NCBI GenBank assembly: GCA_947331495.1
Contig: CAMZOI010000001.1
Span: 1,302,001-1,366,000, forward strand
DNA from: Erythrobacteraceae bacterium Alg239-R51
Lineage (GTDB): Bacteria > Pseudomonadota > Alphaproteobacteria > Sphingomonadales > Sphingomonadaceae
Length of the DNA stretch: 64,000 nucleotides
Direction: 5' to 3'
How positions within the stretch are numbered: the stretch's first letter is position 1; each line of letters starts with the position of its first letter. The position numbers were made by a program, and so were the translations under genes. The notes beneath the pieces are model-generated. The model did no database searches. It saw only the letters and a list, made by a program, of their open reading frames with translations, and had not been told where the DNA came from. Below, piece after piece: positions 44,476 through 58,757 of this stretch.

Positions 44476-44587
44476 CGTAAATTCCTTTCGTTGAGGATCT
44501 GATCGAACAATGGTCGAAAGCCGCCATCGGTCCCGGTCTCGGACTTTTGCGCTTGGAAGGATACCCAAAAGAACATATAAAGAACAC

Positions 44588-45832
44588 ATGGCGTCGCATT
44601 CGATTCTTCAAAAACTGGAAATCTTGGCCGATGCGGCGAAATACGATGCATCCTGCGCCTCTTCAGGAACTGCGAAGAAAAACAGTCTGGGGGGGAAAGG
44701 TCTCGGATCTACGGAGGGGATGGGGATATGCCATGCGTACGCGCCCGACGGGCGATGCATTTCGTTGCTCAAAATCCTTCTGACCAATCACTGTGTTTTT
44801 GATTGCCATTACTGTGTCAATCGCAAGAGCTCGAACGTGGCGCGAGCTCGATTTACGCCTCAGGAAGTGGTCGATCTGACCCTCGGTTTTTATCGACGCA
44901 ACTATATCGAAGGGCTTTTTCTGTCGTCGGGGATCGTGAAGAATTCCAACCATACGATGGAGCAGATCGTCGAAGTTGCTCGTATTCTGCGCGAAGAGCA
45001 TGACTTTCGCGGCTACATACATTTGAAGACCATCCCCGAGGCTGACAGCGAGATTGTCCACCGCGCAGGTCTTTACGCCGACCGTATTTCCATCAATGTC
45101 GAACTTCCGACCGACAGCGGGTTGTCCCGTTTGGCTCCCGACAAGAATGCTCGTCAGATAGAGCGTACGATGGGCGATGTTAAAGAAGATCTGATAGAAG
45201 CAGGAGATGCCAAGAAGAAATTTCGGCATGCTCCACAATTTGCTCCAGCGGGACAATCAACTCAGATGATTGTGGGCGCAGATGCAGCGACAGATGCCGA
45301 CATTGTAGGAAAAGCCAGTCGACTTTATGACGATTTTCGTCTGCGCCGGGTTTATTATTCCGCGTTCTCGCCAATCCCGGACGCGAGTGCGGTGCTACCA
45401 TTGAAGCGCCCGCCGCTCATTCGTGAGCATCGGTTATATCAATCCGACTGGCTGATGCGCTTTTATGGCTTCAAGCCGGGAGACGTTAAGCAAGCGACCG
45501 AAGCCGATGGAAATCTTCCCCTCGATATAGACCCCAAACTGGCTTGGGCACTGAAATTTCGCGATCAGTTCCCTGTCGATGTGAACCGCGCCTCACGAGA
45601 GCAATTGCTTCGCGTTCCCGGATTGGGTGTAAAGGCGGTCTCGAAAATTATCGCTAGTCGTCGCCACCGCACTTTGCGGCTCGATGATGTGGCACGCCTG
45701 ACACTTTCGGTCAGAAAGGTTCGACCCTTCATTTGCACTGTCGACTGGCGTCCTGTTACCTTGATCGACCGCGCCGATCTGCGAACCTTGCTATCCCCAA
45801 ACAAGGAACAGTTCGAACTGTTCGCCGCATGA
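44588..45832 (+). CDS. Radical SAM protein of the putative DNA modification/repair family
   Basis: A 414-residue protein. Cys69, Cys73 and Cys76 (CVFDCHYC) form the CxxxCxxC iron-sulfur site of radical SAM enzymes, and YHLKTIPEADSE-type pattern IHLKTIPEAD lies in the barrel. The C-terminus is a helix-hairpin-helix DNA-binding region (VNRASREQLLRVPGLGVKAVSKI). This is the family paired with UdgX-type proteins; the reaction is not established. The ATG at 44588 gives the family N-terminus KLEILADAAKYDASCASSG. Its TGA overlaps the next ATG (ATGA). Confidence 0.92.
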   Translation: MASHSILQKLEILADAAKYDASCASSGTAKKNSLGGKGLGSTEGMGICHAYAPDGRCISLLKILLTNHCVFDCHYCVNRKSSNVARARFTPQEVVDLTLGFYRRNYIEGLFLSSGIVKNSNHTMEQIVEVARILREEHDFRGYIHLKTIPEADSEIVHRAGLYADRISINVELPTDSGLSRLAPDKNARQIERTMGDVKEDLIEAGDAKKKFRHAPQFAPAGQSTQMIVGADAATDADIVGKASRLYDDFRLRRVYYSAFSPIPDASAVLPLKRPPLIREHRLYQSDWLMRFYGFKPGDVKQATEADGNLPLDIDPKLAWALKFRDQFPVDVNRASREQLLRVPGLGVKAVSKIIASRRHRTLRLDDVARLTLSVRKVRPFICTVDWRPVTLIDRADLRTLLSPNKEQFELFAA

Positions 45833-47259
45833 ACGATCACCCCGGCTCGTACACGATCCGTATGCCGAGATCGGACGATTTCGATTTCTGGCGCGAAATG
45901 GCCCGATCGCTGATCCAGCACGAAGCGGCTCCGGACAGGGTTTTCTGGAGTGAGCCGGGCGGAGAGGGCGATCTGTTCGCGGACGATGAACTCGCCTTGC
46001 CGGACACCCATGCGAATTCGCCGGCGGTACGGGCGAACCGCCGCTTCGTGAACCTGGCGCGGAACGCCATTCTGCATTCCGATCCCGAGCGGTTCGCGTT
46101 GCTCTACCGTGTTTTATGGCGATTACAGAACAATCCGCGGATCCTGGAGGACAAGGCTGATCCCGAGGTTCGTCGGTTGGAAGAACTGGACAAGAACGTT
46201 CGCCGCGACAGTCACAAGATGCATGCTTTTGTGCGCTTCCGTCTCGTGGAAAATACTCATGGTGGGGTCGAGGCCGAAGAACGATATGTCGCTTGGTTCG
46301 AACCGGACCATCACATCTTGCGGGCAAACGCAGGGTTTTTCATGCGCCGTTTTGCGAACATGCGGTGGTCGATCCTGACACCCCAAGGGTCGCTTCACTG
46401 GGATGGCCACACGATGTGCGAAGGGCCTCCCGCAGAACGGTCCGATGCTCCTGGCGACGATTCGATGGAAGATCTCTGGCGCAGCTATTATGCATCTATC
46501 TTCAATCCCGCGCGTTTGAAGGTTGGGGCAATGCTCAAGGAAATGCCCCGCAAGTACTGGAAGAACATGCCTGAGGCTGCTCTCATTCCCGAGTTGGTCG
46601 CGGGTGCGCAGAAGCGGGAGAGCAAAATGGTCGAGGCAGGGACGCTGGAATTCGAAGATCGCCCGGAAACTTTGGAAGCGATCGACAAGGCTATCCACGC
46701 ATGTCGCAAATGCCCGATCGGTGAACTCGACAATCATGCCGTGATGGGGGAGGGGCCGAGTGATGCGGCTCTGATGATCGTTGGAGAGCAGCCCGGCGAC
46801 CAGGAGGATCAGATTGGCCGGCCCTTCGTCGGGCCGGCAGGTCAATTGCTCGACAGTCATCTTGAGAAGATCGGAATTGAACGCAAGGCAAGTTACGTCA
46901 CAAATACGGTCAAACATTTCAAGTATGTGCGACGCGGGAAGCGAAGGTTGCATCAATCACCGGGTGCGAAGGAAATCGATACTTGTCGCTGGTGGATCGA
47001 AAGCGAGCGCGCGATCGTGAAGCCGAAACTGATACTTGCAATGGGAGCCAGTGCTGCGCGCGGAATGCTCGGCAAGACGGTCAGTATCTCGAAAGTTCGC
47101 GGTTCACCAATTCCGCTTGAAGACGGTAGCGAGCTCTGGGTGACGGCCCACCCTTCTTATCTCCTGCGATTGGACGGGCCGGCCCGAGAGGAACAGGCTA
47201 GATTGTTCGATGCAGACCTCGCAGCTGTGAAAGAACGTCTGCACGAATTGAGCGGTTGA
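45829..47259 (+). CDS. udgX: UdgX-type uracil-DNA-binding protein with N-terminal TIGR03915-like domain
   Basis: A 476-residue fusion. Residues 1-260 are the partner domain often encoded separately (FDFWREMARSLI, RRFANMRWSILTPQGSLHWDG). Residues about 285-476 are a family-4-like uracil-DNA glycosylase with GEQPGDQED (319-327), a Cys pair HACRKCPIG for an iron-sulfur cluster, and the UdgX insertion KRRLHQ whose His375 corresponds to the residue that binds the abasic sugar covalently in UdgX. So it likely removes uracil and stays bound. Coupled by ATGA to the radical SAM gene. Confidence 0.92.
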   Translation: MNDHPGSYTIRMPRSDDFDFWREMARSLIQHEAAPDRVFWSEPGGEGDLFADDELALPDTHANSPAVRANRRFVNLARNAILHSDPERFALLYRVLWRLQNNPRILEDKADPEVRRLEELDKNVRRDSHKMHAFVRFRLVENTHGGVEAEERYVAWFEPDHHILRANAGFFMRRFANMRWSILTPQGSLHWDGHTMCEGPPAERSDAPGDDSMEDLWRSYYASIFNPARLKVGAMLKEMPRKYWKNMPEAALIPELVAGAQKRESKMVEAGTLEFEDRPETLEAIDKAIHACRKCPIGELDNHAVMGEGPSDAALMIVGEQPGDQEDQIGRPFVGPAGQLLDSHLEKIGIERKASYVTNTVKHFKYVRRGKRRLHQSPGAKEIDTCRWWIESERAIVKPKLILAMGASAARGMLGKTVSISKVRGSPIPLEDGSELWVTAHPSYLLRLDGPAREEQARLFDADLAAVKERLHELSG

Positions 47260-56972: not shown

Positions 56973-58757
56973 CTAGTCGGCCCATGCCGCGTCTTCGAGG
57001 TGAAGTTCAGCCTGTGGACGACTGCCCCAATCATCAATCTTGATCCGTCCGGCAAGCCACAATTTGCGCCCCTGCGAAGCGTGAAGCAATGATTGTCCCA
57101 TTTCGCTTTCGGCGGCACGAAAAGCGATTCCCTTGAAGCTGCGCCCATCATCGCCCGCAGCGATCAACCGGACGTGATCGGTTCCCACGATATCGCACTT
57201 CACCAGCCTTACCGGTCCGACGGCGACCCTTGGTCCGGGCCATCCGACGCCATAAGGTCCGCCGGAATCGAGCGCCTCGACGAGGTCAGGCACAAGTCCG
57301 CCGGGAGCCACGGCGATGTCCAGCAGCATTTCCTGTTTGAGACAGGCCTTGGCAACCTGCGCTTCGAGCGTTTCGTCGAGCCATTCAGAGAAGGCATCGA
57401 GTTTATCGACCGAGACAGTCAGCCCTGCTGCCATTGCATGCCCGCCTCCGGCCAGCAAAAACCCCTCGTCCCGAGCACGGATGATTACGGCCCCGAGATC
57501 GACGCCGGCAATTGAGCGACCGGACCCCTTTCCCTGGCCAGTGGCGCCATCGACCGCGATCACCAAGGCCGGCTTTCCCGTTTTCTCCTTAATGCGACCT
57601 GCAACGATTCCGATCACGCCGGGATGCCAGTTTTCGCCATGAAGGATATGAACGGCCCGGTTGTGCTGGCCTGCAAGCTGATCTTCCGCCGCTGACTGAA
57701 CCTCCGCCTCGATGTCGCGGCGCTCTTCGTTTAGCGTGGAAAGCTGCGCTGCAATGTCGCGAGCCTCGTCTTCGTTCCGCGTGGTGAGAAGCCTCACTCC
57801 CAGCGTAGATTCGCCGACCCGCCCTCCGGCATTGATCCGCGGCCCGAGCGCAAAGCCCAGATCCGAACAACCGGGCGCGCGTTTGAGACGGCTCGCATCG
57901 ATCAGCGCCGACATGCCGATATTGTTGCGCCGGGCCATGACCTTGAGTCCCTGCGCCACGAAGGCGCGGTTCAGTCCATGCAGTGCCGCGACATCGGCGA
58001 CGGTGCCAAGAGCGACCAGATCGAGCAGGCCGAACAGGTCGGGGGCCTGGCGTTTTTCGAAATACCCGCGTTCGCGCAAGGTGCGGACCAGGGCCACTCC
58101 CAACAGAAAAGCCACGCCGACCGCAGCCAGATGCCCGTGGGAGGAGGCCAGGTCATCCTCGTCGAGACGGTTGGGATTGACCAGCGCCACTGCCTTGGGG
58201 AGTTCGGCCGCGCACTTGTGGTGGTCCACCACGATGACATCGATACCCGCATCATGGGCCATTGCGAGCGCTTCATGCGCCATGGCGCCGCAATCCACCG
58301 TTATGACGAGCGTGCTGCCCTGTTCGCCAAGGCGAACCAAGGCCTCGCCCGAGGGTCCGTAACCTTCGAGCAGTCGGTCGGGAATGTAATAGCCTGCCTC
58401 TACGCCGAGATCGCGCAGGAGCCGGATCAGCAAGGCCGAGCTTGTCGCCCCGTCGACATCGTAATCGCCGTAAACGGTGATCCTCTCGTTCGCCAGCACC
58501 GCTTGCGAGATACGCTCGGCGGCGATGTCCATATCCCGGAACGCCGAAGGATCTGGGAGGAAATCACGCAGGGTCGGATTGCGATGCCGGTCGATATCGT
58601 CCCGCTCGACACCGCGCGCGATAAGGAGCTGATCGACAATGTCGGTCCCCGTCCCGATACCGGCACCGAGTTGCATGTTGCCGCCCCGCCAGCGCCACGA
58701 TCGCCCGGTGAGCGAACGGGACACGCCGAAAACATAGTTCAGTGCCTGCGATGCCAT
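56973..58757 (-). CDS. recJ: Single-stranded-DNA exonuclease RecJ
   Basis: A 594-residue 5'-3' exonuclease used in RecF-pathway recombination and repair. DHH-family metal motifs are visible: ITVYGDYDVDGATSSALL, VITVDCG, VIVVDHHKC and NAGGRVGE, and the DHHA1 domain with GSGRSIAGVDLG and GGGHAMAAGLTV. The ATG at 58757 gives the family N-terminus; a longer reading exists upstream. The end abuts the tRNA-Glu promoter region. Identification is secure. Confidence 0.95.
   Translation of the reverse strand: MASQALNYVFGVSRSLTGRSWRWRGGNMQLGAGIGTGTDIVDQLLIARGVERDDIDRHRNPTLRDFLPDPSAFRDMDIAAERISQAVLANERITVYGDYDVDGATSSALLIRLLRDLGVEAGYYIPDRLLEGYGPSGEALVRLGEQGSTLVITVDCGAMAHEALAMAHDAGIDVIVVDHHKCAAELPKAVALVNPNRLDEDDLASSHGHLAAVGVAFLLGVALVRTLRERGYFEKRQAPDLFGLLDLVALGTVADVAALHGLNRAFVAQGLKVMARRNNIGMSALIDASRLKRAPGCSDLGFALGPRINAGGRVGESTLGVRLLTTRNEDEARDIAAQLSTLNEERRDIEAEVQSAAEDQLAGQHNRAVHILHGENWHPGVIGIVAGRIKEKTGKPALVIAVDGATGQGKGSGRSIAGVDLGAVIIRARDEGFLLAGGGHAMAAGLTVSVDKLDAFSEWLDETLEAQVAKACLKQEMLLDIAVAPGGLVPDLVEALDSGGPYGVGWPGPRVAVGPVRLVKCDIVGTDHVRLIAAGDDGRSFKGIAFRAAESEMGQSLLHASQGRKLWLAGRIKIDDWGSRPQAELHLEDAAWAD

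Follow-up and report, generated by a model that had tools for sequence, protein, structure and literature searches.

What does a radical S-adenosylmethionine (SAM) enzyme do in an operon with a UdgX-type uracil-DNA glycosylase (UDG) domain? The question is raised by a two-gene unit of Erythrobacteraceae bacterium Alg239-R51, found in a stretch of 64,000 nucleotides (contig CAMZOI010000001.1 of assembly GCA_947331495.1, positions 1,302,001 to 1,366,000), hereafter named the window, in which the coordinates below are given. The first gene (44588–45832, + strand) encodes a 414-residue radical SAM protein with a helix-hairpin-helix (HhH) domain, which scores 578 bits with TIGR03916 (cut-off 343.5) and spans positions 1–399 of the 415 of the profile. 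The second gene (45829–47259, + strand) encodes a 476-residue DUF4130-UdgX fusion protein with TIGR03915 and TIGR03914 matches. The two are coupled through an ATGA (45829–45832), in which the stop codon of the radical SAM open reading frame (ORF) overlaps the start codon of the fusion. The original prediction, made from the letters of the window, had described this architecture, and the scores, far over the cut-offs, agree with it. It had also read the genes as a pair for covalent uracil trapping. We favour another explanation, to which we give somewhat better than even chances from sequence comparison: a LexA-controlled radical enzyme, tethered to the sliding clamp, that would act on DNA lesions together with DUF4130, UdgX being fused to the unit in some lineages.

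Judged from gene linkage, the conserved core of the operon is the pair formed by radical SAM and DUF4130. We used samples of 200 Pseudomonadota genomes and 149 Bacillota genomes, a class-only draw of 115 genomes, and the best 80 of 591 loci confirmed in a profile search of GTDB genome contigs, mostly from Bacteroidota and Bacillota; alignments and structural work drew on 69 of these 80 radical SAM loci and on 44 of 77 DUF4130 loci. TIGR03916 exceeded its cut-off in 31 of the 200 Pseudomonadota genomes and TIGR03915 did so in the identical 31, each time on the same contig and strand, with gaps of 27–637 nt between the matches. In the class-only draw, TIGR03916 was over its cut-off in 7 genomes, our own counted. 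Caulobacter vibrioides/crescentus, one of the control genomes, matches all three families. Among Bacillota it was over cut-off in 35 genomes, 34 of which also contained TIGR03915 at E ≤ 0.001 (over its own cut-off in 27 genomes of the draw), and the two genes were adjacent in 32 of the 35. They are far apart on one contig in genome G425 and on different contigs in G386; G377 has no DUF4130, but its radical SAM match runs to the contig edge. In the GTDB loci, DUF4130 lies downstream on the same strand in 77 of 80 cases (the misses being L130, L138 and L155), at a distance of about 4.7 kb in L098. When the 25 largest clusters of neighbouring genes were compared over the 80 loci, the DUF4130 cluster covered 65 loci, and the next ones at most 10, mostly from close kin. 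This linkage suggests that the two proteins form a complex.

A few loci depart from the simple order. In Heliobacterium chlorum (L155, 6724–8013), for which no DUF4130 neighbour was detected, a DNA photolyase gene follows the radical SAM gene. In L004, which belongs to the family relative G012, an ORF with a hemerythrin domain (PF01814; 2806–3282, reverse-complemented) lies between radical SAM and DUF4130, possibly as an oxygen or iron guard. A putative alpha/beta-hydrolase ORF occupies the same place in the Hymenobacter loci L087, L098, L099 and L114.

UdgX, on the same comparative evidence, is an optional add-on module fused in some lineages. It is over cut-off behind DUF4130 in 22 of the 31 Pseudomonadota genomes (in another frame in G259), or in 23 if the UdgX piece of G297, located on another contig, is counted, and it is not over cut-off in 8. 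Searching with the UdgX half of the window's fusion by phmmer gave no match in any of the 80 GTDB loci. In addition, 35 genomes were covered for 36 of these UdgX-less loci; TIGR03914 was over cut-off in none of the 35 genomes, and seven had weaker UDG-type matches. Conversely, six of the 200 Pseudomonadota genomes have a solo UdgX, with no radical SAM gene. The C-terminal end of DUF4130 is kept just upstream of it in the solo loci L064, L066 and L068, and not in L075; a LexA-type box begins 21 nt ahead of the open frame in L068, and none was found in L064, L066 and L075. Since three of these four loci retain a DUF4130 remnant, UdgX can outlive the rest of the unit. The genes of the operon do recur together elsewhere, and in this respect the proposed uracil-trap pair holds, as it does for their coupling and for the active-site histidine described below. 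It is DUF4130, however, that accompanies the radical SAM protein almost without exception (31 of 31 Pseudomonadota and 34 of 35 Bacillota genomes), and the comparison does not support the idea that radical SAM and UdgX form the functional pair, or that the radical enzyme serves to free or change the UdgX adduct.

The UdgX domain itself (residues 252–467, 46582–47229, + strand) keeps the catalytic residues of its family. It matches TIGR03914 with 315 bits and the structure of Mycobacterium smegmatis UdgX (MsmUdgX, 6ail) with an E value of 9.7e-42. Motif A, GEQPG, starts at residue 319 (46783–46797) and motif B, HPSYLLR, at residue 441 (47149–47169). The R-loop KRRLH (46939–46953, + strand), part of KRRLHQ starting at residue 371, aligns to KRRIH of MsmUdgX. 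His375 (codon 46951–46953) therefore stands at the position of the crosslinking His109, because GKRRLH aligns onto GKRRIH of the mycobacterial protein, as the original prediction had anticipated for this KRRxHQ loop. The covalent bond formed by H109 and the definition of the UdgX motifs are described in PMC10359453. The R-loop histidine is kept in all 20 genomes in which UdgX was read behind DUF4130, in the variants KRRLH, KRRIH, KKRLH, KIRLH, KFRLH, RRRLH and KQRLH; the UdgX of G270, G255, G196 and G161 and the solo UdgX of G066 and G258 lie outside the loci read. No HPS motif was seen in the frame of L055.

The radical SAM protein has several conserved features. Its CxxxCxxC motif (C69, C73 and C76; 44792–44815, + strand) is invariant in 70 of 70 aligned sequences, and PF04055 (Radical_SAM) is matched with 30.5 bits against a threshold of 29.5. 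Three extra cysteines, C23, C48 and C57 (GICH...DGRC; 44654–44758, + strand), are likewise invariant in 70 of 70, as well as in 9 of 9 sequences of a smaller alignment. The invariance of these cysteines beside C69, C73 and C76 suggests that they may hold an auxiliary Fe-S cluster, such as lipoyl synthase and biotin synthase contain. In the AlphaFold2 model, which has a pLDDT of 88, the ten-residue blocks of this region (residues 21–60) have mean values of 57–68. Toward the C-terminus, an HhH DNA-binding motif (residues 329–359, 45572–45664, + strand) matches PF12836 (HHH_3) with 24.0 bits, under the gathering score of 27 bits, yet a profile of 70 sequences matches the ComEA-related HhH protein 2duy at residues 323–368 (E 0.0014), which sustains the HhH tail that had been proposed. 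Comparison of the model by VIA gave HydE as the top match (7o1o; Z 16.4, rmsd 2.7, 215 aligned residues), and also listed lipoyl synthase (4u0o; Z 16.3, rmsd 3.4, 222 aligned), biotin synthase (1r30; Z 14.8, rmsd 3.2, 216 aligned) and the RNA-acting methylase RlmN (Z 13.1, rmsd 3.7, 222 aligned). The sole PDB match at the sequence level in the radical SAM core was HydG, around the cluster motif.

The protein ends in a peptide of the beta-sliding-clamp type, QFELF (residues 408–412, 45809–45823, + strand), a feature absent from the original prediction. Q408 is kept in 70 of 70 sequences and F412 in 66 of 70. Clamp clients follow the consensus QL[S/D]LF or QxxLF, according to PMC12309361. The form QLxLF occurs within the last 60 residues of 57 of the 80 relatives, versus none of 726 control ORFs of the same loci, and the relaxed form Q[LIMFV]x[LIM][FL] in 69 of 80, versus 7 of 726. 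With a hexapeptide form included, a pattern drawn up for the present analysis, 75 of 80 relatives have a clamp-type peptide. The relaxed form is found in 13 of 18 Pseudomonadota radical SAM proteins (our own included), the other five ending in QLSLAF, QLQLI, QLGFGF, QGSLF and QASLF; five additional Pseudomonadota proteins end in QLSLL, QLELF, QLSLF and, twice, QLGFGF. No clamp motif was found in the last 60 residues of any of 78 DUF4130 ORFs. The last block of the model, which holds the tail, has a pLDDT of 56. Hence, the C-terminal tail of the radical SAM protein may bind the clamp; no report of a clamp motif in these proteins was found among the open-licence papers listed. A divergent HhH radical SAM protein of a Gemmatirosa plasmid (L081), seemingly lacking the three extra cysteines and with no DUF4130 detected, carries QLSLW near its C-terminus.

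Directly ahead of the operon lies another feature that had been missed. The alphaproteobacterial type of LexA box is GAAC-N7-GAAC, and one such box, GAACATATAAAGAAC (44571–44585, + strand), stops 2 nt short of the radical SAM start codon. GAAC-N7-GAACA occurs 36 times in the genome, versus 13 times for the reversed control. Such sites precede lexA, uvrA, a radical SAM gene of the PA0069 family and an ImuA-like ORF whose match (E 2e-5) is below its cut-off; many further ones fall inside ORFs. The box type also precedes the radical SAM gene in all 6 class relatives over cut-off. Among 17 further Pseudomonadota loci (L042–L058), a LexA-type box is present in 15, of the alphaproteobacterial type in either direction in 13 and of the CTGTn8ACAG type in 2; L042 and L055 have neither. 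In the 200 bp upstream of the 80 GTDB loci, with expectations taken from mononucleotide shuffles, GAACn4GTTC was found in 6 loci (0.12 expected) and CTAAn5TTAG in 15 (0.51 expected). COG4277 is taken here to be the TIGR03916 protein. CTAA-N5-TTAG and GGA-N5-TCC boxes, along with a COG1573-COG4277 operon, have been reported for Bacteroidetes (PMC8565304), and a radical SAM gene figures in a LexA table for Streptomyces (PMC9380542). Overall, the boxes point to LexA binding and induction of the operon in the SOS response.

Two side observations concern other boxes of the same genome. A 16-mer identical to the LexA-type site of the operon, GAACATATAAAGAACA, lies at L021 (G000:C1:569011–569026) beside a small ORF, presumably for a DUF3072-like protein. 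With the box at the PA0069-family gene (L030, G000:C1:1486185–1486200), LexA-type boxes accompany two or more radical SAM genes of this genome.

DUF4130 (residues 15–250 of the fusion, 45871–46578, + strand) matches TIGR03915 with 230 bits, over the cut-off of 112.25, in agreement with the TIGR03915-like domain originally noticed, and PF13566 with 139 bits against 27. Its model has a pLDDT of 81, and Foldseek returned nothing for it at E ≤ 0.001. The VIA rows are, by title, of the DHH/DHHA1 type (8a8k, Z 8.5, rmsd 6.4, 191 aligned; RecJ 1ir6, Z 8.0, rmsd 5.1, 187 aligned), Z values near 8 being of a size that may arise by chance. Of the 33 Pfam families that 45 members of DUF4130 match at E ≤ 10, 25 were listed, with DHH and DHHA1 not among them, and hhalign of DUF4130 against 29 RecJ sequences gave a probability of 0.1. 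A kinship with DHH/RecJ proteins, hinted at by the VIA list alone, finds no support in sequence profiles. In the explanation we favour, DUF4130 would be a dedicated partner, probably a DNA- or substrate-binding subunit.

These features can be combined into a mechanism. Under LexA control, the operon would be switched on by DNA damage. The radical SAM enzyme would bind DNA via its HhH motif and dock on the sliding clamp via its C-terminal QxxLF peptide. A 5'-deoxyadenosyl radical, probably assisted by an extra Fe-S cluster on C23, C48 and C57, would alter or reverse a lesion exposed at or behind the replication fork, with DUF4130 as the dedicated partner subunit of a two-part core. Where present, as in this genome and many other Pseudomonadota, UdgX would excise uracil and bind the abasic site covalently through His375. 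It would be a fused lesion-capture module delivered with the unit and not a substrate of the radical SAM enzyme. Because UdgX is optional and the radical SAM-DUF4130 core is conserved, DNA itself, rather than a UdgX adduct, is probably what the radical enzyme acts on. The architecture, the linkage of radical SAM and DUF4130, the optional UdgX, the LexA-type boxes, the clamp-type motif and the catalytic residues are read directly from the sequences; the binding of LexA and of the clamp, the complex, the extra cluster, DNA as the radical substrate and the lesion itself we infer. A more extended version, in which a widespread, LexA-induced fork-repair machine contains a clamp-riding radical SAM enzyme that attacks lesions at stalled forks by radical chemistry, DUF4130 is possibly of RecJ/Cdc45-like fold and a self-crosslinking UdgX, acquired in Pseudomonadota, shields uracil-derived abasic sites as a functional counterpart of HMCES in bacteria, we put forward tentatively and with more doubt than confidence.

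Several observations weigh against the explanation we favour. The fold of the radical SAM protein is closest to HydE, lipoyl synthase and biotin synthase, none of which, to our knowledge, acts on DNA. The peptide of our own protein fits QxxLF and not QLxLF, 11 of the 80 radical SAM proteins also contain the relaxed motif elsewhere in the chain, and 5 of the 80 relatives have neither the penta- nor the hexapeptide form. As for regulation, most of the 80 GTDB loci lack any of the stricter boxes over the scanned 200 bp, the enrichment of GGAn5TCC-like sites is only moderate (17 of 80, 5.8 expected, several of them in triple arrays), and the four GAACn7GAAC sites of the window do not significantly exceed the 2.4 expected. 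Since the motif is that common, the case for LexA rests on the position of the box and its conservation. With respect to linkage, in the Bacillota genome G381, which has no DUF4130, the radical SAM match falls slightly below the cut-off, and G426 and G461 have DUF4130 with only partial radical SAM matches.

The nearest alternative is the one with which we started, in which UdgX captures an abasic site and the radical SAM enzyme cleaves or repairs the His-DNA adduct. The frequency of UdgX behind DUF4130 in radical SAM-bearing Pseudomonadota and the conserved R-loop histidine speak for this scheme. It is nevertheless very unlikely, given the 8 Pseudomonadota pairs, the 80 loci and the 35 genomes with no UdgX over cut-off, and the six genomes that keep UdgX without radical SAM, among them the loci with a DUF4130 stump, one of which is boxed. 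As a general function, radical release of the UdgX adduct is discarded, UdgX being absent from many pairs and able to outlive them; in lineages with a fused UdgX, release of the adduct would be an additional task at best. A different proposal keeps DNA as the substrate and makes the enzyme a direct reverter like spore photoproduct lyase (SplB), repairing a pyrimidine lesion of the UV type with DUF4130 as an accessory. A figure legend of PMC3765255 and the photolyase gene of H. chlorum speak for it, but the latter is one photolyase neighbour noticed among 80 loci and forms no pattern, HydE and lipoyl synthase match the model best (Z 16), and no result here singles out the lesion, which leaves the proposal unlikely.

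Lesion bypass has to be considered along with repair. Here, on the strength of clamp docking and LexA control, the unit would be a mutagenesis factor working alongside polymerases of the ImuB/DnaE2 type, and the radical enzyme would make damaged template bases copyable. DUF4130 is called a "predicted mutagenesis-related enzyme" in a figure legend of PMC3765255, and a LexA-type box also stands at the ImuA-like ORF of the same genome, with the sub-cut-off match mentioned above. Nevertheless, neither imuABC nor dnaE2 was seen in the 25 largest clusters of genes flanking the 80 loci, as judged by eye from sequence starts; we regard bypass as decidedly unlikely. In the last alternative, the substrate is a small molecule, an RNA or a protein of the damage response, and the HhH and clamp motifs only localise the enzyme. 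Its structural neighbours HydE, LipA and BioB, the presence of RlmN in the VIA list and the HydG match around the cluster motif all fit such a role. The HhH motif, the clamp-type peptide, the LexA-type boxes and the UDG fusion all indicate DNA instead, and make this alternative highly improbable. We retain a probably clamp-tethered radical enzyme acting on DNA with DUF4130 as the best account of the operon.

The neighbours of the operon are a sodium:neurotransmitter symporter-type gene upstream, a divergent pyridoxamine-oxidase-like gene on its flank and an extensin-C-like gene downstream, and all three look unrelated. The recJ gene of the genome lies at 56994–58643 (− strand), about 10 kb downstream. 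PADLOC models matched neither operon protein at E ≤ 0.01, and a known anti-phage defence system was rejected on this ground. Among 50,697 phage records, 10 had a match, namely 8 labelled "Bacteriophage sp." from faeces and 2 of Acinetobacter. The Acinetobacter phage MD-2021a record (L082) has genes of a tRNA synthetase (glyS/glyQ) and an acyl-CoA dehydrogenase (aidB) aboard and resembles a bacterial host chromosome; one faecal record inspected was without annotation. Carriage of the unit by phages is thus unsupported, the Acinetobacter record inspected looking like host DNA and the faecal records being left unjudged.

If the explanation we favour is correct, radical enzymology would enter replication-coupled repair, and it would become doubtful that the Bacteroidetes version is rightly described as a system of uracil glycosylase. 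The extended version would add a kind of DNA repair that is new, radical chemistry guided by the clamp. The separable UdgX and the clamp-type motif shift the focus from the UdgX adduct to the radical SAM-DUF4130 pair at forks with SOS-type damage. The family linkage and the predicted LexA control (PMC8565304) and the mutagenesis label of DUF4130 (PMC3765255) are already in print. Among the open-licence papers listed, we found no substrate or activity of DUF4130 or its radical SAM partner, no paper joining UdgX with radical SAM and no fitness data.

Set against known systems, the operon departs in nothing from the NCBIfam families TIGR03916, TIGR03915 and TIGR03914, all three parts being far over the cut-offs. 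The model names rSAM_link_UDG, SAM_7_link_chp and UDG_fam_dom already record the gene linkage, and the descriptions ("putative DNA modification/repair", "putative DNA repair") are without the clamp-type tail, the extra cysteines and the optional UdgX. The "UDG base excision repair" operon COG1573-COG4277 of PMC8565304, predicted in Bacteroidetes with Verrucomicrobia and Alphaproteobacteria cited too, is likewise a two-gene, LexA-linked unit with a COG4277 protein. Its partner is called there a uracil-DNA glycosylase, whereas in the 80 loci analysed here the partner is DUF4130 and no UdgX-like domain was found. The label therefore looks doubtful, and what has been published as the COG1573 "UDG" partner in Bacteroidetes is possibly DUF4130 with no UDG domain.

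Compared with MsmUdgX (6ail), the UdgX of the window has the active-site motifs GEQPG, KRRxH loop and HPS in common. The solved chains of the mycobacterial protein comprise 205–229 residues without other domains, whereas the domain in the window follows DUF4130 within one polypeptide, whose gene is coupled to that of the radical SAM protein. SplB is a radical SAM enzyme that acts on DNA. It is not among the listed structural matches of our radical SAM model, an omission that does not exclude a relation, and its plan is different, the HhH tail, the clamp-type peptide and the DUF4130 partner being features of the present system. Both SplB and COG4277 appear in the LexA networks of PMC8565304. 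A last comparison is with HMCES/SRAP, with which the likeness is one of working principle only, since chemistry and family differ. In HMCES/SRAP, a protein with a link to the sliding clamp captures abasic sites covalently; in the unit described here, the clamp-type motif is located on the radical SAM partner, and not on UdgX.

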